A stretch of DNA of 64,000 bases from Lentzea tibetensis. GTDB taxonomy: Bacteria; Actinomycetota; Actinomycetes; Mycobacteriales; Pseudonocardiaceae. The stretch's first letter is position 1. Each line of letters starts with the position of its first letter. The position numbers and the translations under genes are program-made. The DNA lies in contig NZ_VOBR01000038.1 in the NCBI RefSeq assembly GCF_007845675.1, positions 1 to 64,000 of the forward strand, given 5' to 3'. Below the pieces are notes generated by a model. That model ran no database searches, was not told the origin of the DNA, and saw nothing but the letters and a program-made list of their open reading frames with translations. Shown one piece after another: positions 19,755-30,551 of this stretch.

Positions 19755-20480
19755 CTACAGGCGCCGGGTGTCGAGCTTCTCCTCGAGCACCGCACCCGAC
19801 GCGTCGCGTGACACGACGTACGCGATGGCGCCCGGCTGTTCGGTGACCGCTTCCACGAGCTCCGTGCCGCGGTAGACGAGACCGGCGCCGTCGTCGGTGC
19901 AGTGCGTGAGCGGGAGCTCGCCCGAGGCGACCGCCTTGTGCACGGCGGGCCTGCGGGTGGCCTCGCTGTCGTAGTGCACGCCGTTGCCGTACGGCAGCAG
20001 CCCCAGCCCGTTCGTCACGACCCGCAGCTCAGGTCCGAACGAGTCCGTCGTGCCGCCCACGTACCAGCAGATCGACCCGGCGGACACACCGCCGAGCACG
20101 ACGCCCGCGCGCCACGCGTCGGCCAGCACCTCGTCCAGTCCGTGCACGCGCCACACGGCGAGCAGGTTCGCGACCGAGCCGCCGCCGACCCACACCACGT
20201 CGTGCGACCGCACGAAGTCCACGAGGTCGTTGGTGGGCGGCATGGTGAACAGGTTCAGGTGCGACACGTCGACACCGGCGAGCTTGCCCGCCTCGGAGAC
20301 GTGCGCGTTGAACGTCCGCTGGTCGCCGTTCGCGGTGCCGACGTGGCAGAGCGACGGCCTGCCCTCCGCACCGGACAGGTCGATGGCGTGGTGGATCAGC
20401 GCCCCGAACTCGAGGTTGGTGCGACGGCCGGGGCGCCATCCGCCGGAGGTGGCGACGATGGTCGGTAGCTCAGCAGGCAT
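19755..20480 (-). CDS. peptidase E-like protein (family S51)
   Basis: 241 residues. S51 peptidases use a Ser-His-(Asp/Glu) set in a class I glutamine-amidotransferase-like fold. The nucleophile is in GGVSAGSICWY, the preceding strand reads HDVVWVGGGSVANLLAVWR and the C-terminal THCTDDGAGLVYRG supports the family. Peptidase E cleaves Asp-X dipeptides; specificity here is not determined. No signal peptide. Divergent from the DUF218 protein gene. Confidence 0.8.
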   Translation of the reverse strand: MPAELPTIVATSGGWRPGRRTNLEFGALIHHAIDLSGAEGRPSLCHVGTANGDQRTFNAHVSEAGKLAGVDVSHLNLFTMPPTNDLVDFVRSHDVVWVGGGSVANLLAVWRVHGLDEVLADAWRAGVVLGGVSAGSICWYVGGTTDSFGPELRVVTNGLGLLPYGNGVHYDSEATRRPAVHKAVASGELPLTHCTDDGAGLVYRGTELVEAVTEQPGAIAYVVSRDASGAVLEEKLDTRRL

Positions 20481-20532: not shown

Positions 20533-21207
20533 ATGCATGGGGTGCGGACCAAGCCACTGACACCCCTGGCCAGAATCCGGCGGCTCGTGCTGAGGCTCGT
20601 GTTCGGCGCGGTTGTCGTAGGTGCGCTGGTCGTGGGCGGTACGGCGTTCCGCGTCTGGCAGGTCGCGAGGGTTGACGACTGGACGAAGGCCGACGTGGCG
20701 ATCGTGCTGGGCGCCGCGCAGTACAACGGTGTGCCGTCCGACGTGCTGGAGGCCCGGCTGCGGCACACGCTCAAGCTCTACCAGCAGGGCGTGGTGAGCT
20801 ACGTCGCCACGACGGGAGGCCGTCAGGCTGGCGACAAGTACACCGAGGGCCAGGCGGGCAAGATCTGGCTCGTCGAGAACGGCGTCCCCGAGGACAAGGT
20901 GCTCGAGGTCGGCGAGGGCAGCGACACGCTCGGCAGCCTGCGCGCCGTCGCCGACGTCGCCAAGGTGCACGGCCTGGAGACCGCGGTGATCGTCAGCGAC
21001 CCGTGGCATTCGCTGCGCGCCCGCACGATGGCCGAGGACGCCGGGCTGACCGCGTGGACGTCGCCGACCCGCAGCGGACCGAACGTGCAGACCCGCGAGA
21101 CGCAGCTCTTCTACATCAAGCGCGAGACCGGCGCGCTGCTCTACTACCGGCTGATGAAGGCCCCTGCCGGGGTGTTCGACGGGATCGCGGCACATACGCT
21201 TGGCTGA
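20533..21207 (+). CDS. DUF218/SanA-YdcF family membrane-anchored protein
   Basis: 224 residues. One N-terminal transmembrane helix (about 19-38) anchors a DUF218 domain: DVAIVLGAAQYNGVPSDVLEARL, VATTGGRQAGDKYTEG and VIVSDPWHSLRA are the typical glycine-rich and DPWH-like motifs. SanA proteins affect envelope barrier function and vancomycin tolerance. The stop overlaps the dgt ATG (TGATG). Confidence 0.8.
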   Translation: MHGVRTKPLTPLARIRRLVLRLVFGAVVVGALVVGGTAFRVWQVARVDDWTKADVAIVLGAAQYNGVPSDVLEARLRHTLKLYQQGVVSYVATTGGRQAGDKYTEGQAGKIWLVENGVPEDKVLEVGEGSDTLGSLRAVADVAKVHGLETAVIVSDPWHSLRARTMAEDAGLTAWTSPTRSGPNVQTRETQLFYIKRETGALLYYRLMKAPAGVFDGIAAHTLG

Positions 21208-22445
21208 TGCTGCGTTACTCCGACCACGACGCCGAGCGGCTGCTGAACGAGGAGCCCAAGGGCGGGTCACTGCCCGGCGCGCAGGAGCGGCGCACGCCGT
21301 TCTCCCGTGACCGCGCCCGCGTGCTGCACTCGGCCGCGCTGCGCAGGCTGGCCGGCAAGACGCAGGTCGTCGGCCCCGGTGAGGGTTCGGAGGTCACCGG
21401 TGTGCCGCGCACCCGGCTCACCCACTCGCTGGAGGTCGCGCAGATCGGCCGCGGCATCGGTGAGGAGCTCGGCTGCGACCCGGACGTCGTCGACACGGCC
21501 GGGCTCGCGCACGACATCGGGCACCCGCCGTTCGGGCACAACGGGGAACGCGCGCTGAACGCGCTGGCCGAGCCGTGCGGCGGCTTCGAGGGCAACGCCC
21601 AGACGCTGCGCATCCTGGTCCGGCTGGAGCCGAAGACGGCGCGCGGGCTGAACCTCACGCGCGCGGTGCTCGACGCCGCCACGAAGTACCCGTGGACGCG
21701 CCGGGCGGGCATCACCAAGTTCGGCGTGTACGACGACGACCTGGACGTCTTCGAGTGGATCCGCTCAGGTGCGCCCGAGCGCAAGCAGTGCATCGAGGCG
21801 CAGGTCATGGACTGGGCGGACGACGTCGCGTACTCGGTGCACGACGTGGAGGACGGCGTGCTCGCGCACCGCATCAGCCTGACGTCGCTGACCAGCGCCA
21901 CCGAGCGCGCCGCGATCGCCGAGCTGGCCGCCAAGCACTTCTCGGCGGAACCGGTGTCCGCGCTGGAGGACGCCGCGCAGGACCTGCTGAAGATCCCGGC
22001 CGTCGCGGAGCTGGCGCGCGCGGAGTACGACGGTTCGCTCGGCGCGCAGGTCGCGTTGAAGAGGCTGACCAGTGAGCTCGTCGGCCGGTTCGCCTCCGCC
22101 CCGGTCGGTGCGACGCGCGAGGTGTACGGCGAGGGTCCGCTGGTCCGCTACCACGCGGATCTCGTTGTGCCGCCCCAGGTCGCGGCCGAGGTCGCGCTGC
22201 TGAAGGCGATGGCCGTCCGGTACGTCATGAGCGATCCGTCGCGGCTGCTGATGCAGCGGGAGCAGCGCGAGCTGATCACCTCGCTCGTGGCGCAGCTGTT
22301 GCGGCGCCCGGACCGGATGGACCCGGCGTTCCTGCCCGCGTGGGAGTCGGCCGCGGACGACGCCGCCGCACTGCGCGTCGTCGTCGATCAGGTCGCCCTG
22401 CTGACGGACGCGCAGGCTGTGGCCTGGCACAACGCACTGGCGTAG
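21207..22445 (+). CDS. dgt: deoxyguanosinetriphosphate triphosphohydrolase-like protein
   Basis: 412 residues. HD-domain dNTPase that releases tripolyphosphate from dGTP. The metal site is seen in TRLTHSLEVAQIGR and GLAHDIGHPPFGHNGE, with a third D in MDWADDVAYSVHDVEDG. The N-terminus FSRDRARVLHSAALRRLAGKTQV is characteristic of Dgt. In M. tuberculosis dgt (Rv2344c) is adjacent to dnaG (Rv2343c); here about 6 kb of accessory genes separate them. The ATG overlaps the upstream stop. Confidence 0.9.
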   Translation: MLRYSDHDAERLLNEEPKGGSLPGAQERRTPFSRDRARVLHSAALRRLAGKTQVVGPGEGSEVTGVPRTRLTHSLEVAQIGRGIGEELGCDPDVVDTAGLAHDIGHPPFGHNGERALNALAEPCGGFEGNAQTLRILVRLEPKTARGLNLTRAVLDAATKYPWTRRAGITKFGVYDDDLDVFEWIRSGAPERKQCIEAQVMDWADDVAYSVHDVEDGVLAHRISLTSLTSATERAAIAELAAKHFSAEPVSALEDAAQDLLKIPAVAELARAEYDGSLGAQVALKRLTSELVGRFASAPVGATREVYGEGPLVRYHADLVVPPQVAAEVALLKAMAVRYVMSDPSRLLMQREQRELITSLVAQLLRRPDRMDPAFLPAWESAADDAAALRVVVDQVALLTDAQAVAWHNALA

Positions 22446-22455
22446 CTTCGAAGGT

Positions 22456-22695
22456 ATGGCGGACGACGAGACACGACCGCCAGGCCGAAGATGGCCGTGG
22501 CGTCGACCGAGCAGGGAGGCGGTTCCGGCGGGCCCGGATGGGTTCGGCTGGGGCTGGGACGACGAGGGGGACGACGGTTCCGCAGGTGTGCGCGAACCAC
22601 GTCACCCGAAACCGCTGGGGCCGATGGGAGGGGCGGGGGAACGGCCCATCCCCGACGATCCGATCGCAGTGCAGTTGCCCGATCCACGACACTAG
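22456..22695 (+). CDS. small hydrophilic hypothetical protein
   Basis: 79 residues, rich in Arg, Pro, Gly and Asp, with no domain. Support for a real gene: ATG 22456 lies 7 nt after TAGCTT (22443-22448), a leaderless-type -10, and the frame fills the gap between dgt and the serpin genes. It may be low-complexity only. The serpin ribosome binding site lies across its stop. Confidence 0.35.
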   Translation: MADDETRPPGRRWPWRRPSREAVPAGPDGFGWGWDDEGDDGSAGVREPRHPKPLGPMGGAGERPIPDDPIAVQLPDPRH

Positions 22696-22705
22696 GAGCA
22701 ATCCC

Positions 22706-23734
22706 GTGACCGATCGAGCGCACCTGGCGTTCGCCACCGCACTGCACCGCGTCGCCGCGCCCGATCAGAACAGCGACGCGTGCTGGTCGCCCTACTCGGT
22801 GGCCAGCGCGCTCGCACTCGCGATGGAAGGCGCGCGCGGTGAGACGCGCGTCGAACTGGAGGGCCTGCTCGGCTCGTCGGTGACGGCTTTGTTGAAGGAA
22901 GCCGCGTCGCCGAAGGAACTCTCGGTCGCGAACACCCTGTGGGCGGCCGACGACCTGCCGCTCAACCCCGAGTTCAGCCTCGCCGCGCACGTGCGGAACG
23001 CGCCGTTCGCGTCCGACCCGGAGACCGTGCGCAAGCTCGTCAACACCGACGTCGCCGAGACGACGCACGGGCTGATCCCCGAGCTGATGCCGTCCGGCTC
23101 GGTGTCGCCGGACGCCGTCGCGATGATCGTCAACGCGCTGTACCTGAAGGTCGCGTGGCTCAGCCCGTTCCCCGCGTACGACACGACGGAGCGCCCGTTC
23201 CACACGCCCGGCGGTGACGTGGCGGTGCCGACCATGCGGCACACCGCCAAGTTCCGCTACGCCCGCAGCCCCGGCTGGCAGACGATCGTGCTGCCCGCCG
23301 CGTCCGGCGTCGAGGCCGTGGTGCTGCTGCCCGACGGCGACCTGTCCGCGCCGCTGGACCCGGTGGTGCTGGAGGCGACCGACCACGTCCGCCTCGACCT
23401 CTCGATGCCTCGGGTCGACGTGTCGATGAAGATGTCGCTCAAGGACTCACTGGTGCAGCTGGGCGTCTGGAGCATGTTCAGCGAGAACGCGGACTTCACC
23501 GGCATCTCGCCGGACCCGCGGCTGTTCGTCGACGACGTGCTGCACGAGGCCGTGCTGCGCGTGGACGAGGAAGGCCTCGAAGGCGCCGCCGCGACGGCCG
23601 CGACGTTCCGCCTGGTGTCGATCGAGATCGAGGACGACCCGGTCGTCGTCGAGGTCGACCGGCCGTTCCTGTTGCTGGTCCGGCACGCGAACACCGGCGC
23701 GATCTACTTCATGACCCGTATCGTCCGTCCGTGA
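22706..23734 (+). CDS. serpin family serine protease inhibitor (1 of 3)
   Basis: 342 residues, shorter than the 370-400 of animal serpins and lacking a signal peptide, so probably cytoplasmic. Core landmarks: CWSPYSVASALALAMEGA (helix B/s6B), IVNALYLKVAW (s3A), VVLLPDG (s3C region), the inhibitory hinge DEEGLEGAAATAAT and DRPFLLLVRH-x-x-TGAIYF (s4B-s5B). A small-residue hinge is the hallmark of inhibitory serpins, which trap serine or cysteine proteases by loop insertion. GTG 22706 has AGGAG upstream. Its stop overlaps the next serpin start. Confidence 0.88.
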   Translation: MTDRAHLAFATALHRVAAPDQNSDACWSPYSVASALALAMEGARGETRVELEGLLGSSVTALLKEAASPKELSVANTLWAADDLPLNPEFSLAAHVRNAPFASDPETVRKLVNTDVAETTHGLIPELMPSGSVSPDAVAMIVNALYLKVAWLSPFPAYDTTERPFHTPGGDVAVPTMRHTAKFRYARSPGWQTIVLPAASGVEAVVLLPDGDLSAPLDPVVLEATDHVRLDLSMPRVDVSMKMSLKDSLVQLGVWSMFSENADFTGISPDPRLFVDDVLHEAVLRVDEEGLEGAAATAATFRLVSIEIEDDPVVVEVDRPFLLLVRHANTGAIYFMTRIVRP

Positions 23735-24672
23735 ACGATTTCGCACCGCGGCTCCTGGGGGAGCTGCCCGGTGACGTGTGCTGGTCGCCGTACTCCGTCG
23801 AGTCCGCCCTGCGCATCGTGCTGCGCCTCGCCGAGGGCTCGACCCGCGCGCGACTGCTGGAGCTCCTGGGTTCGGAGGAGCTGCCGGGTTCGCACCCGCC
23901 GGGCTTCGCCGTCTCGGACTCCTTGTGGGCGCGGGACTTCCTGAACCTGCCCGCGCCGGTCCGGTTGTTCGACGACCCGGCTGCGGCTCTGAAGCTGATC
24001 AACGCCGAGGTGGCTGAGGCGACCCGTGGGCTGATTCCGGAGCTGCTGAAGTCGTTGGCGCCTTCGACGACGGCGGTCGTGGTCAACGCGCTGTACCTGA
24101 AGGCTCAGTGGTGGGGGCAGTTCTGGCTCGTCGGCGACGAGCCGTTCCACAGCCCTTCCGGCGACCGGCTGGTGCCGATGATGCAGCGGCAGAGCAGCTT
24201 CCCGTACGCGCGGCTGCACGGCTGGGAGGTCGTGAAGATCCCTGCGCACGACGACGTGGAAGCTGTGGTGCTGCTGCCGTCCGACGGTATGGATCTCGAT
24301 TCTCGTGCGCTCTCCGAGTTGCTGGACGCGCATGCTCACACCGAAGTGCTGCTGACCATGCCCACGCTGAAGCTCTCGTACGGCGACGACCTGCGTCCGG
24401 CGCTGGAACGGCTCGGGCTCGCGGCCGTGTTCGCGCAGGGCGGCATGCCGCATCCGGACATGGTGATCGACCAGGTGATCCACCAGGCCGTGCTGCGCGT
24501 CGACGAGCACGGCATCGAGGGCACCGCGGCCACCGCGATCATGGCCGTCGGCAGCCCGGTCCCGGTCCCCGTCGAGCCGGTCGAGGTGACGGTGGACCGG
24601 CCGTTCCTGTTCCTGGTGCGGCACTCGGTGACCGGCGCGATCTACTTCCTGGCGCGCGTGGAGAACCTGTGA
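23731..24672 (+). CDS. serpin family protease inhibitor (2 of 3)
   Basis: 313 residues, paralogue of both neighbours, starting with a GTG that overlaps the previous stop (GTGA). It has CWSPYSVESALRIVLRLAEG, VVNALYLKAQWWG, the hinge DEHGIEGTAATAI and VDRPFLFLVRHSVTGAIYF. The reactive-centre loop after the hinge is Pro/Val-rich (SPVPVPVEP) and unlike the other two copies, so a different target is likely. The N-terminal helix A region is cut short: the protein begins about 15 residues before s6B. No signal peptide. Confidence 0.86.
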   Translation: MNDFAPRLLGELPGDVCWSPYSVESALRIVLRLAEGSTRARLLELLGSEELPGSHPPGFAVSDSLWARDFLNLPAPVRLFDDPAAALKLINAEVAEATRGLIPELLKSLAPSTTAVVVNALYLKAQWWGQFWLVGDEPFHSPSGDRLVPMMQRQSSFPYARLHGWEVVKIPAHDDVEAVVLLPSDGMDLDSRALSELLDAHAHTEVLLTMPTLKLSYGDDLRPALERLGLAAVFAQGGMPHPDMVIDQVIHQAVLRVDEHGIEGTAATAIMAVGSPVPVPVEPVEVTVDRPFLFLVRHSVTGAIYFLARVENL

Positions 24673-25613
24673 TCGAGTTCGCGGCCCGGCTCCACCGCGA
24701 GCTGCCGGGCGACGTGTGCTGGTCGCCGTACTCCGTGGCCGCCGCTCTGCACACCGTGCTCGGCCTGGTCCGCGGCGAGACGCGTGACGAGCTGCTGGAG
24801 TTGCTGGGTTCCGCGGGGTTGCCGGGTTCGCATCCGCCGGACTTCGCGGTCGCGGACGCCCTGTGGGCCCGTCGCGGCATGAACCTGCCGCCGCCCGTCC
24901 AGTTCTTCGACGATCCGGTGATCGCCCGGAAGCTGATCAACGCGGACGTCGCCGCGGTCACTCGCGACCTGATCCCGGAGTTGATCGACGACCTGCCACT
25001 CGACACGGTCTCGGTGCTGGTGAACGCCCTGTACCTGAAGGCGAGCTGGGCCGAGGAGTTCACCGCCGCTGGCCCGCTGCCGTTCACCACTCCGGACGGC
25101 GAGGTCGACGTGCCGTCGATGTCGGTCGAGGAACGCCTCGGCTACGCCCGCCTGCACGGCTGGCAGGTGGTGACGATCCCGGCACTCGGCGACGTCGAGG
25201 CCGTGGTGCTGATGCCGAAGCAGTCGCTCGACCTGAACCCGGCCCTGTTCGCGACCCTGCTCGCCGCGCCGCAGCCGACCAACGTCAGGTTGCGGATGCC
25301 GAAGCTGGAGTACGGCGCGGAGCTGCTGGAGCCGCTGGCCGCGCTGGGCGTGACAGGCATGTTCGTGACCGGTCCGGACTTCCCTGACCCGACGATGACC
25401 GTCGACTCCGTGGTCCACCGGACCGTGCTGCGGGTCGATGAGCACGGCCTCGAGGGCGCCGCCGGCACGGCGATGGTCGCGGTGATGGGCTGGGACGACT
25501 TCCCCGACCCGGTCGTGGTGAAGGTGGACCGGCCGTTCCTCTTCGTCGTGCGGCACGCCCGTACGGGTGCTATTTACTTCATGGCACGCGTGTCCCGCCC
25601 TGCGAGTTCTTGA
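24669..25613 (+). CDS. serpin family protease inhibitor (3 of 3)
   Basis: 314 residues, closest to serpin 2 by start point and length (both begin with a fragment like F-A-x-R-L and GDVCWSPYSV). It has LVNALYLKASWAEEF, hinge DEHGLEGAAGTAMVA and VDRPFLFVVRHARTGAIYFMARV. The loop after the hinge (VMGWDDFPDP) is acidic/aromatic. The GTG overlaps the serpin 2 stop, so all three are one translational unit. No signal peptide; presumed intracellular. Confidence 0.86.
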   Translation: MIEFAARLHRELPGDVCWSPYSVAAALHTVLGLVRGETRDELLELLGSAGLPGSHPPDFAVADALWARRGMNLPPPVQFFDDPVIARKLINADVAAVTRDLIPELIDDLPLDTVSVLVNALYLKASWAEEFTAAGPLPFTTPDGEVDVPSMSVEERLGYARLHGWQVVTIPALGDVEAVVLMPKQSLDLNPALFATLLAAPQPTNVRLRMPKLEYGAELLEPLAALGVTGMFVTGPDFPDPTMTVDSVVHRTVLRVDEHGLEGAAGTAMVAVMGWDDFPDPVVVKVDRPFLFVVRHARTGAIYFMARVSRPASS

Positions 25614-25634: not shown

Positions 25635-26150
25635 ATGACGACGCATGGGGCCGAGCAGTACCTCGTGCTCGCCGAGGCGGGCGCCACCAAAATCAGCTGC
25701 TTCAGCGGTGTCACCATCCCGGTACTGCTGCGCACCGAGGAGTACGCGGCCGCGCTCGCCCACCAGCTCGGCCTCGCGCCCGCCCCGGAGCTCGACCGCC
25801 GCAACGTGCTCGCCAAGTGCGACTTCTTCATCCACGAGTACGCACTGCGCACGCGCGTAGGCGACGACCGGCTGATGGAGGAGCAGATGCTGCACCTGCT
25901 CTTCCGCGCCGACGTGATCCGCGTCGTGCCGGCGGACGCGGGCGGCGCGGCGGCGTTCGGCCTCGACTACACGATGATCCAGTACGCCCACGACCCGCCG
26001 GTGCTCTACCTGGCGAACGTCGTGCTGGCCACCGACCAGGAGACCGTCGAGCGCGCCCTGATGATCTTCGAACGGTTGCGCGACATCGCGCTGGACAACG
26101 AGGACTCGCGCGAGATGCTCATGAGCTACCTGGCCGAGTACGACCGATAG
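25635..26150 (+). CDS. stand-alone DUF5753 (Scr1/TA-type regulator sensor) protein
   Basis: 171 residues. It matches the C-terminal DUF5753 domain of Scr1-type Xre regulators: FSGVTIPVLLRTEEYAAALAHQLG, then RRNVLAKCDFFIHEYALRTRVG, LFRADVIRVVPADAGGAAAFGLDYTMIQYAHDPPVLYLAN and a closing helix. The usual N-terminal Xre DNA-binding domain is absent, and the frame starts at ATG 25635 with a leaderless -10, so this is a genuinely short protein. A typical DUF397 partner is not seen. It may titrate or sense for a regulator encoded elsewhere. Confidence 0.7.
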   Translation: MTTHGAEQYLVLAEAGATKISCFSGVTIPVLLRTEEYAAALAHQLGLAPAPELDRRNVLAKCDFFIHEYALRTRVGDDRLMEEQMLHLLFRADVIRVVPADAGGAAAFGLDYTMIQYAHDPPVLYLANVVLATDQETVERALMIFERLRDIALDNEDSREMLMSYLAEYDR

Positions 26151-26178: not shown

Positions 26179-26355
26179 TCAGCTGGTGTTGCGGCGCAGG
26201 TAGAGCTTCATCCCGTTCTCACCGGGCAGCGCGCACAGCAGCAGCTTGACGTTCTGGTGCCGCACCGGAACCGCGCACGAGTCACCGGCGAGAAGAGTTC
26301 CGGCGAGCAGGCCTGCTGACTCGTGGTCGATGTCCAGCACGAAGTCGTTGCTCAT
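26179..26355 (-). CDS. 58-residue hypothetical protein
   Basis: A short gene on the minus strand from ATG 26355 to TGA 26179. It begins MSNDFVLDIDHESAGLL and ends KLYLRRNTS, with two cysteines and a core of hydrophobic strands separated by glycines. Codon use is normal for this genome (third positions nearly all G or C). It is convergent with the DUF5753 gene, from which it is 28 bp away; an antagonistic pairing would be speculation. No family recognised. Confidence 0.5.
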   Translation of the reverse strand: MSNDFVLDIDHESAGLLAGTLLAGDSCAVPVRHQNVKLLLCALPGENGMKLYLRRNTS

Positions 26356-28661: not shown

Positions 28662-30551
28662 GTGGCAGGACGCATCAGGGAGAGCGACATCGCGCTGGTG
28701 CGTGACCGCAGTCGGGTCGACGAGGTCGTGGGCGACCACGTGTCGCTGCGGCGCGCGGGTGGCGGTGCGCTGAAGGGGTTGTGCCCCTTCCACGACGAGA
28801 AGACGCCTTCGTTCAACGTGCGCCCGACGCACGGCACGTTCCACTGCTTCGGGTGCGGCGAGGGCGGCGACGTCATCGCGTTCGTGATGAAGGTCGAGCA
28901 CCTCTCGTTCGTCGAGGCGGTCGAGCGGCTCGCGGACCGGGCGGGCATCCAGCTGACCTACGAGGGCGGCGGCGCGACGATCCAGCGCGACCGCGGCACG
29001 CGGTCCCGGCTGCTGGAGGCGCACCGCGCGGCCGCGGAGTACTACGCCGAGCAGCTCGCGACGCCGGAAGCGTTGAAGGCGCGGGAGTTCCTGGCCGAGC
29101 GCGGGTTCGACGAGGCGGCCGCGCGCCTGTTCGGCTGCGGCTTCGCGCCTGCGGGCTGGGACAAGCTCACCAAGCACCTGCTGAACCGCGGCTTCGAGCT
29201 CACCGAGCTGATCAAGGCGCAGCTCACCAAGGAGGGCCGTCAGGGCCCGATCGACCGGTTCCACCGCAGGCTGCTGTGGCCGATCAGGGACATGGGCGGC
29301 GACGTCGTCGGGTTCGGCGCGCGCCGGATCTTCGACGACGACCAGATCCAGGCGAAGTACCTGAACACCAGCGAGAGCCCGATCTACAAGAAGTCGCACG
29401 TGCTCTTCGGGCTGGACCTGGCCAAGAAGGAGATCGCCAAGCGCCGCCAGGCCGTCGTCGTCGAGGGCTACACCGACGTGATGGCCATGCACCTGTCCGG
29501 TGTGACGACCGCGATCGCCTCGTGCGGCACGGCGTTCGGCACGGACCACATGAACGTGCTGCGCAGGCTGCTGATCGACGACGACATGAACGGCGAGGTG
29601 ATCTTCACCTTCGACGGCGACGCGGCGGGGCAGAAGGCCGCGCTGAAGGCGTTCGAGGGCGAGCAGCAGTTCTCCGCGCAGACCTACATCGCGATCGCGC
29701 CGGACGGCATGGACCCGTGCGAGCTGCGCCAGGCCAAGGGCGAGGTCGCGGTGCGCGACCTGGTGGCGCGGCGCACCCCGTTGATCGAGTTCGCGATCCG
29801 CACCCAGCTGCAGGACTACGACCTGGACTCGGTCGACGGCCGCGTCGAGGCGCTGAAGAAGATGGTCCCGTTCGTCGCGCAGATCAAGGACCGCGCGAAG
29901 CGGGACGGCTACGCCACCAAGCTCGCCTGGTGGGTCGGCTGGTCCGACGAGGCCGCCGTGGTGCGCCGCGTGCGCGAGACGTCGGGCGGCAAGACGCCGC
30001 GCGCACCTCGTCCGGTCGTGGACCCGAACCAGGGTGCGCTGGGCATCGAGGTGGACGGGCCTTCGCGGCCGGACCCGCGTGACCCGCGGCTGTGGCACCA
30101 GCGCGAGGCCATCAAGTCCGCGCTGCAGCTGCCCGAGGTCGCGGGCCCGTACTACGACCAGCTGCCGGACGAGGCGTTCACGCACCCCGCGTACCTGGAG
30201 CTGCACCGGGCCATCAGGGGTGCCGGCGGTGCGTCCGGTGGCCTGTCCGGACCGTCCTTCGTGGACGCCGTGTCGCAGCGGTGCAAGAACCAGTCGGTGC
30301 GCACCGTGCTGTCCGAGCTGTCCGTGGAAGCCTTGCAGGTCAAGGAGGGCGACGAGTACAAGTACGTGTCGTCCGTGCTGTCGCGGTTGCAGCAGCTGCT
30401 CGTCGGCGGCCAGATCGCGGACATCAAGTCGCGCCTGCAGCGCATCTCGCCGGTGCAGGAGCCGGACGAGTACCGCGCGCTGTTCGGCGACCTCGTCGCG
30501 CTCGAGGAGTACCACAAGGCGCTCGGTTCACAGGCGGTTGGAGGGCTGTAG
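28662..30551 (+). CDS. dnaG: DNA primase
   Basis: 629 residues. DnaG makes RNA primers at the replication fork. The CHC2 zinc ribbon (CPFHDEKTPSFNVRP, FHCFGCGEGG) is at about residues 41-69, the TOPRIM/catalytic core includes VVVEGYTDVMA and FDGDAAGQKAA, and a C-terminal DnaB-binding domain ends the protein. GTG 28662 starts AGRIRESDIALVRDRS. It directly abuts the next gene. Divergent from the sigma factor. Confidence 0.96.
   Translation: MAGRIRESDIALVRDRSRVDEVVGDHVSLRRAGGGALKGLCPFHDEKTPSFNVRPTHGTFHCFGCGEGGDVIAFVMKVEHLSFVEAVERLADRAGIQLTYEGGGATIQRDRGTRSRLLEAHRAAAEYYAEQLATPEALKAREFLAERGFDEAAARLFGCGFAPAGWDKLTKHLLNRGFELTELIKAQLTKEGRQGPIDRFHRRLLWPIRDMGGDVVGFGARRIFDDDQIQAKYLNTSESPIYKKSHVLFGLDLAKKEIAKRRQAVVVEGYTDVMAMHLSGVTTAIASCGTAFGTDHMNVLRRLLIDDDMNGEVIFTFDGDAAGQKAALKAFEGEQQFSAQTYIAIAPDGMDPCELRQAKGEVAVRDLVARRTPLIEFAIRTQLQDYDLDSVDGRVEALKKMVPFVAQIKDRAKRDGYATKLAWWVGWSDEAAVVRRVRETSGGKTPRAPRPVVDPNQGALGIEVDGPSRPDPRDPRLWHQREAIKSALQLPEVAGPYYDQLPDEAFTHPAYLELHRAIRGAGGASGGLSGPSFVDAVSQRCKNQSVRTVLSELSVEALQVKEGDEYKYVSSVLSRLQQLLVGGQIADIKSRLQRISPVQEPDEYRALFGDLVALEEYHKALGSQAVGGL

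Follow-up and report, generated by a model that had tools for sequence, protein, structure and literature searches.

The question raised by this locus is what three serpin genes in a row are doing between dgt and dnaG in Lentzea tibetensis, and whether they form a set of inhibitors diversified against different proteases, as an earlier note on this DNA had proposed. The window, i.e. the whole stretch of DNA that was analysed, is 64,000 nucleotides long. The genes, here called S1, S2 and S3, are intact open reading frames, each overlapping the next by four bases, as the note had described (Table 1). From this arrangement of the sequence, S2 and S3 are probably translated by coupling to S1. The stop codon of the preceding 79-aa ORF overlaps the AGGAG before S1, so S1 itself may be coupled to an upstream gene. 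The gene upstream of this ORF is called dgt following the earlier note and our own naming; we take it to be dGTP triphosphohydrolase-like.

Table 1. Positions in the window of the three serpin genes, their reactive loops and flanking landmarks.
Feature	Position	Strand	Remarks
dgt, HD-domain protein	21207..22445	+	Pfam HD and HD_assoc; upstream neighbour of S1
79-aa ORF between dgt and S1	22456..22695	+	no Pfam match; stop TAG overlaps AGGAG before S1
S1, resident thermopin-type serpin	22706..23734	+	342 aa, GTG start; Pfam E 1.6e-70; P1-P1' probably Val304-Ser305, P3 Arg302
S1 hinge and reactive loop	23567..23638	+	P17 (Glu288) to P7'
S1/S2 start/stop overlap	23731..23734	+	GTGA, 4 bases; from sequence
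S2, compact serpin paralogue	23731..24672	+	313 aa, GTG start; Pfam E 7.6e-54
S2 hinge and reactive loop	24505..24576	+	P17 (Glu259) to P7'; P3 = Val
S2/S3 start/stop overlap	24669..24672	+	GTGA, 4 bases; from sequence
S3, compact serpin paralogue	24669..25613	+	314 aa, GTG start; Pfam E 1.6e-49
S3 hinge and reactive loop	25440..25511	+	P17 (Glu258) to P7'; P3 = Val; P2-P3' = Met-Gly-Trp-Asp-Asp
dnaG, downstream landmark	28662..30551	+	tblastn synteny

All three proteins are of a known kind. Each exceeded the curated cut-off of 27 bits for the Pfam serpin profile PF00079 (S1 238.7, S2 183.8 and S3 169.5 bits), and a search of the whole genome found no serpin beyond these three. Among serpins of solved structure, the best sequence match of each was thermopin of Thermobifida fusca (PDB 1SNG, native; 1MTP, cleaved), and by this closeness they are classed as thermopin-type (Group U). 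Thermopin is placed in Group U in the available part of PMC8233489. S2 and S3 are shorter than thermopin; only profile positions 118-369 were aligned in S2 and 116-370 in S3, and in the alignment both are without some body residues after LWA. Pairwise identity was 43.5% for S1-S2, 48.5% for S1-S3 and 56.7% for S2-S3, so that the body, which had been described as conserved among the copies, is only moderately so. Judged by eye, neither a signal peptide nor a lipoprotein leader is visible in the translations, which begin VTDRAHLAF (S1), VNDFAPRLL (S2) and VIEFAARLH (S3). The absence of a signal peptide from all three had been noted before, and S1 is therefore probably cytoplasmic.

The serpins had been regarded as scattered in bacteria and, here, as inserted between dgt and dnaG. 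Neither statement holds for the Pseudonocardiaceae. A serpin match was found in 298/391 family genomes, exactly one in 267 of those, and in 25/25 Lentzea genomes. The 93 genomes with none imply that the serpin is dispensable in some lineages. S1 sits after dgt on the same strand. The other Lentzea genomes (24/24) all keep a single gene order, ydcF, dgt, serpin and then a DUF5753 gene, with dnaG further downstream wherever the stretch was long enough to reach it. Across the family, the serpin followed dgt at 77/79 named loci, which are the best-scoring of 182, are skewed towards S1 and include most of the 24 Lentzea genomes; the two exceptions are contigs that start <250 bases before the serpin. 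The same arrangement was present in 35/37 later-picked family genomes (exceptions L182 and L184; loci are cited by L numbers), which were selected by hand rather than at random and of which at least 8 repeat genomes of the named loci. The dgt-serpin gap reached ~1.5 kb at some named loci, where other genes may lie between the two. Across the family genomes examined, dgt is usually followed by a serpin. Therefore S1 is classified as the resident gene, and the insertion of a serpin cassette between dgt and dnaG was rejected on this synteny. A literature search of titles and abstract openings, made without dgt among its terms and mostly outside subscription journals, turned up no serpin described beside dgt, and no paper was found for serpin together with dnaG.

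Several neighbours of the serpin genes were also examined. The 79-aa ORF has clear relatives in 9/22 Lentzea stretches (L030, L032, L033, L035, L039, L040, L042, L044, L049). Positions 25635-26150 encode a lone DUF5753 protein (Pfam E 5.2e-30), the counterpart of the gene that follows the serpin in the other Lentzea loci. The Umezawaea counterpart (L056 8133-9014, 293 aa) has an additional N-terminal region, helix-turn-helix-like by eye, and the Lentzea protein thus seems to have lost that region. On the minus strand, a 58-aa ORF without a Pfam match (26179-26355) resembles a 74-aa Umezawaea ORF (L056 9158-9382, minus strand), the two having AGLLAGTLLAGDSCAV in common. Also on the minus strand, ~2 kb before S1, lies a peptidase family S51 gene (19755-20480, Pfam E 7.8e-27), presumably an unlikely serpin target.

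The small-residue hinge that the note assigned to inhibitory serpins is kept in all three proteins (EEGLEGAAATA in S1, EHGIEGTAATA in S2 and EHGLEGAAGTA in S3) and the loops differ just after it, both as the note had observed. The inhibitory consensus for P17-P9 is given as ExGTEAAAA in the accessible portion of PMC8233489. P17, P15 and P13 match this consensus in S1, S2 and S3, and P11-P9 mostly do; P14 is Leu or Ile, and P12 is Gly in all three. The departures from it, Leu/Phe/Ile instead of Thr at P14 and Gly instead of Ala at P12, count against an inhibitory role; the thermopin hinge likewise has Gly at P12. With Glu288 as P17, the sequence of the S1 loop is EEGLEGAAATAATFRLV-S. In cleaved thermopin 1MTP, chain A (323 aa) stops two residues beyond the match of Arg302, at the residue aligned with Val304. 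This supports Val304 as P1 and Arg302 as P3; this register is based on chain A, thermopin's cleaved C-terminal chain being absent among the best 60 of 93 matches.

The loop was then compared across dgt-linked serpins. S1 and the 79 named loci show no variation at P13-P7 or at P3 (P3 Arg in 80/80), while P14, P6-P4 and P2-P1' vary among few residues. A wider set held 176 distinct serpins, with only identical proteins merged, close relatives counted separately, extra loci chosen by hand and the loci added last kept outside the counts. P3 Arg was present in 113/124 of its dgt-linked members. Arg is missing from P3 in the remaining 11, namely S2, S3, four Lentzea second copies, one copy each from L107 and L108, and three single-serpin residents (L177 with Gly, L186 with Val, L191 with Ser). 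Counted by class, P3 Arg occurs in 113/116 dgt-linked serpins not classed as tandem copies and in none of the 8 tandem copies. Among the 124, P4 was Met or Phe in 108, P1 was Val or Thr in 97 and P1' was Ser or Ala in 115. The loop is thus conserved among the orthologues of S1, which is, for S1, what the note had named as refuting its reading, and diversification of the whole serpin set is not supported. Over P4-P1' the loop has hardly changed (Met/Phe, Arg, x, Val/Thr, Ser/Ala), which points to one long-standing protease type as the putative target. A protease whose S4 and S1 pockets are hydrophobic, reminiscent of subtilisins, would match a loop of the S1 type. The genome has 44 subtilisin-family matches, with no target singled out.

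Thermopin itself shares the EGAAATA hinge of S1, and its inhibition of chymotrypsin, 8.4e4 M-1 s-1, is quoted in the available text of PMC10090351. Eleven thermopin-type loci outside the family (L197-L207) have the same hinge, but none of their stretches shows a match to dgt, ydcF or dnaG, and their resident-type genes have Ala at P14, not Leu/Phe; at P3, nine have Leu, Val or Ala and two have Arg. The two with Arg (L201, L203) belong to another family and have no dgt nearby, and so P3 Arg is either older or arose more than once. Their loops, Met-Arg-Leu/Thr-Ala-Ser, are close to the dgt-linked type. At L206 the loop is identical to thermopin's, and no leader adjoins the start of the protein. 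Pairs of serpins with differing loops occur at L199 and L207.

S2 and S3 are sisters in the tree (support 100/100; ~57% identical), the S2 branch being long (1.1). No orthologue-like match to either was found among the other 390 family genomes, and the best match of S3 in all 391 is S2 (340 bits; next best 251 bits). Among these family genomes the S1-type serpin is widespread, and no S2/S3 orthologue was found. S3 is 42-50% identical to the residents compared and 49% identical to L108_2. The careful trees place S2+S3 separately on a long branch; a quick tree groups them with L108_2 and L182_1 (SH-aLRT 92), possibly by long-branch attraction. A weakly supported branch (82/69) has Lentzea plus S2/S3 on one of its sides. 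The overall identity of S2 and S3 to S1 is 43-49%, with 54/65 nearly invariant positions kept in S2 and 59/65 in S3, and since most of these residues are retained, both were rejected as plain pseudogenes.

The P4-P3' pattern of S3, Ala-x-Met-Gly-Trp-x-Asp, recurs in L219 and L221, in a compact serpin that is unlinked and only 39% identical to S3; the L220 counterpart has Gly in place of Trp. This second, compact serpin of genus g8 (328 aa; L219 3346-4320, L220 3589-4557, L221 3365-4333) has no dgt nearby and a Met-Gly-Trp/Gly-His-Asp loop resembling that of S3.

Tandem serpins were found at other loci as well. Four Lentzea genomes (L007, L010, L016, L026) have an intact second copy, and these copies form one clade nested in Lentzea (100/100). 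They resemble S2/S3 in standing in tandem with the resident at dgt, in their changed loops and, except in L016, in being joined to it by the same 4-base overlap; they differ in forming a separate clade, in their full size and in a shift of the Arg to P2 in Ser/Thr-Arg-Gly. Beyond Lentzea, the family has pairs at dgt in L107 and L108, and in L217 and L218 at places with no dgt in the stretch. The L107 copy adjoining dgt is the one without P3 Arg, and was classed as the copy because of its longer branch (0.75 vs 0.37). The two L107 copies pair in both trees, while those of L108 pair only in the careful tree (97/82); in the quick tree L108_2 pairs with L182_1 instead (98). In L217 and L218 the P3 residue is Arg in the first serpin and Gly in the second, so loss of the Arg by copies is no general rule. 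Ser/Thr-Arg-Gly loops recur in the Lentzea second copies, L107 and L217/L218, which looks like convergence.

Rows of three or four serpins occur outside the family (L194-L196, L210-L212), and with neighbouring serpins of differing loops in other actinobacteria the triplet arrangement itself is not unique. At each of L210, L211 and L212 (genus g131), loci picked for this feature, three adjacent serpins differ in their loops, and lipoprotein-like leaders are visible in 4/9 starts. Ten family serpins at other loci have a GTEAAA or GTDAAA hinge, with lipoprotein-like leaders in at least three (L110, L117, L122), the other starts being cut off. GTEAAA-hinge serpins share the fold family of S1-S3, but are set apart by their hinge, their loci and, where the start is visible, their leaders.

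The rates of change in loop, hinge and body were estimated from pN. In 18 Lentzea residents the mean pN was 0.089 for the body, 0.005 for the hinge and 0.098 for the loop, compared with 0.177, 0.046 and 0.285 in the four Lentzea second copies. For the S2-S3 pair the values were 0.296, 0.135 and 0.448, with a loop pS of 0.396. Thus the loops of the copies change faster than their bodies, the residents' loop changes about as fast as the body, and hinge pN was below body pN in 4/4 pairs and both groups tested. The loop divergence that the note had emphasized is therefore present between S2 and S3, with the hinge conserved; with ~14 loop codons in one pair, positive selection is not demonstrable.

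Structure models cover S1 and S2, and S3 was compared by alignment. In the S1 model (pLDDT 88.5) loop 293-305 is disordered and the best fold match is native thermopin 1SNG (TM 0.86/0.84). The S2 model (pLDDT 86.1) has the hinge as a strand; its best hits are serpins at probability 1.00, many of them cleaved or latent. The first helix is shorter in S2, and helix 59-66 of S1 has no counterpart there. AlphaFold models of serpins may adopt the loop-inserted form without this having any meaning, and the difference between the predicted structures is not taken as proof of lost inhibition.

Our preferred reading, probable though not assured, makes S1 a suicide inhibitor that acts in the cytoplasm against a single conserved protease type, and S2 and S3 copies that evolve fast and have altered specificity or diminished function. 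S1 would have been inherited vertically in the Pseudonocardiaceae and kept beside dgt. A protease would cut its exposed loop at about Val304-Ser305, and the hinge would then insert into sheet A, trapping the enzyme. The target would most simply be one of the cell's own serine proteases active in the wrong compartment. A comparable shielding of the cytoplasm from stray own proteases is proposed for animal intracellular Group B serpins in the part of PMC8233489 available, which belong to another lineage. S2 and S3 would be trimmed sister paralogues that keep hinge and core, lack P3 Arg and the ancestral loop, and most likely have another target or are on the way to losing inhibition. A much less probable placing of S1 has it leave the cell by a non-classical export route and guard against proteases of competitors or of a host. 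Most prokaryotic serpins carry transport peptides according to the accessible part of PMC8233489. However, no leader was seen by eye in those dgt-linked serpins whose N-termini were read, leaders being visible instead in at least three of the ten GTEAAA/GTDAAA-hinge serpins at other loci, and a single target inside the cell would account for a frozen loop better than varied targets outside it.

The role of S2 and S3 can be read in two further ways. It is possible, if less likely than the reading we favour, that they are products of gene birth and death, relaxed-constraint copies that no longer inhibit and have perhaps a passive role or none. Second-copy fragments lie at the same place in Lentzea L009, L019 and L024, and S2 and S3 have lost 11/65 and 6/65 nearly invariant positions respectively, vs 0 to 3 in the four Lentzea second copies. 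The missing P3 Arg and body segments, the long S2 branch and the modelled S2 hinge, already a strand in a fold matching cleaved or latent serpins, point the same way, with the proviso already made for loop-inserted models. Yet both frames are open, GC at third codon positions of S2 is 0.91, most nearly invariant residues are retained in both and body pN is below pS between them. We regard as unlikely the proposal of the earlier note, in which the three form a diversified set whose several targets lie inside the cell, proteasome-associated or phage proteases perhaps among them, and whose changed loops would have been selected to match. It is consistent with three intact overlapping genes, with an S2-S3 pN/pS of about 1.1 in the loop vs 0.66 in the body, with the recurrence of the S3 loop pattern in the unlinked serpin of 2/3 g8 genomes and with the differing-loop neighbours of L210-L212. 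Against it stand the nearly frozen S1 loop, the lack of S2/S3 orthologues in the family genomes and the shortness of the loop in the only pair available.

S1 as a resident inhibitor with fast-evolving copies leaves room for a bolder and doubtful extension. There may be a family-wide intracellular protease-serpin axis, with the loop of the inhibitor being one of its most strongly conserved segments, together with a compact Met-Gly-Trp-x-Asp type (S3, L219/L221) guarding a second conserved target; the Lentzea triplet would then hold both types in one operon.

The surprise of this locus is not the triplet. It is the dgt-linked serpin, widespread and nearly frozen in its loop, of which S1 is one example, accompanied by tandem copies whose loops change. 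A vertically kept serpin with no visible leader and a nearly fixed loop in most family genomes would offer one inhibitor and one likely target type across many species, with natural lineages that have no serpin, and the tandem copies provide a natural comparison of conserved and released reactive loops.
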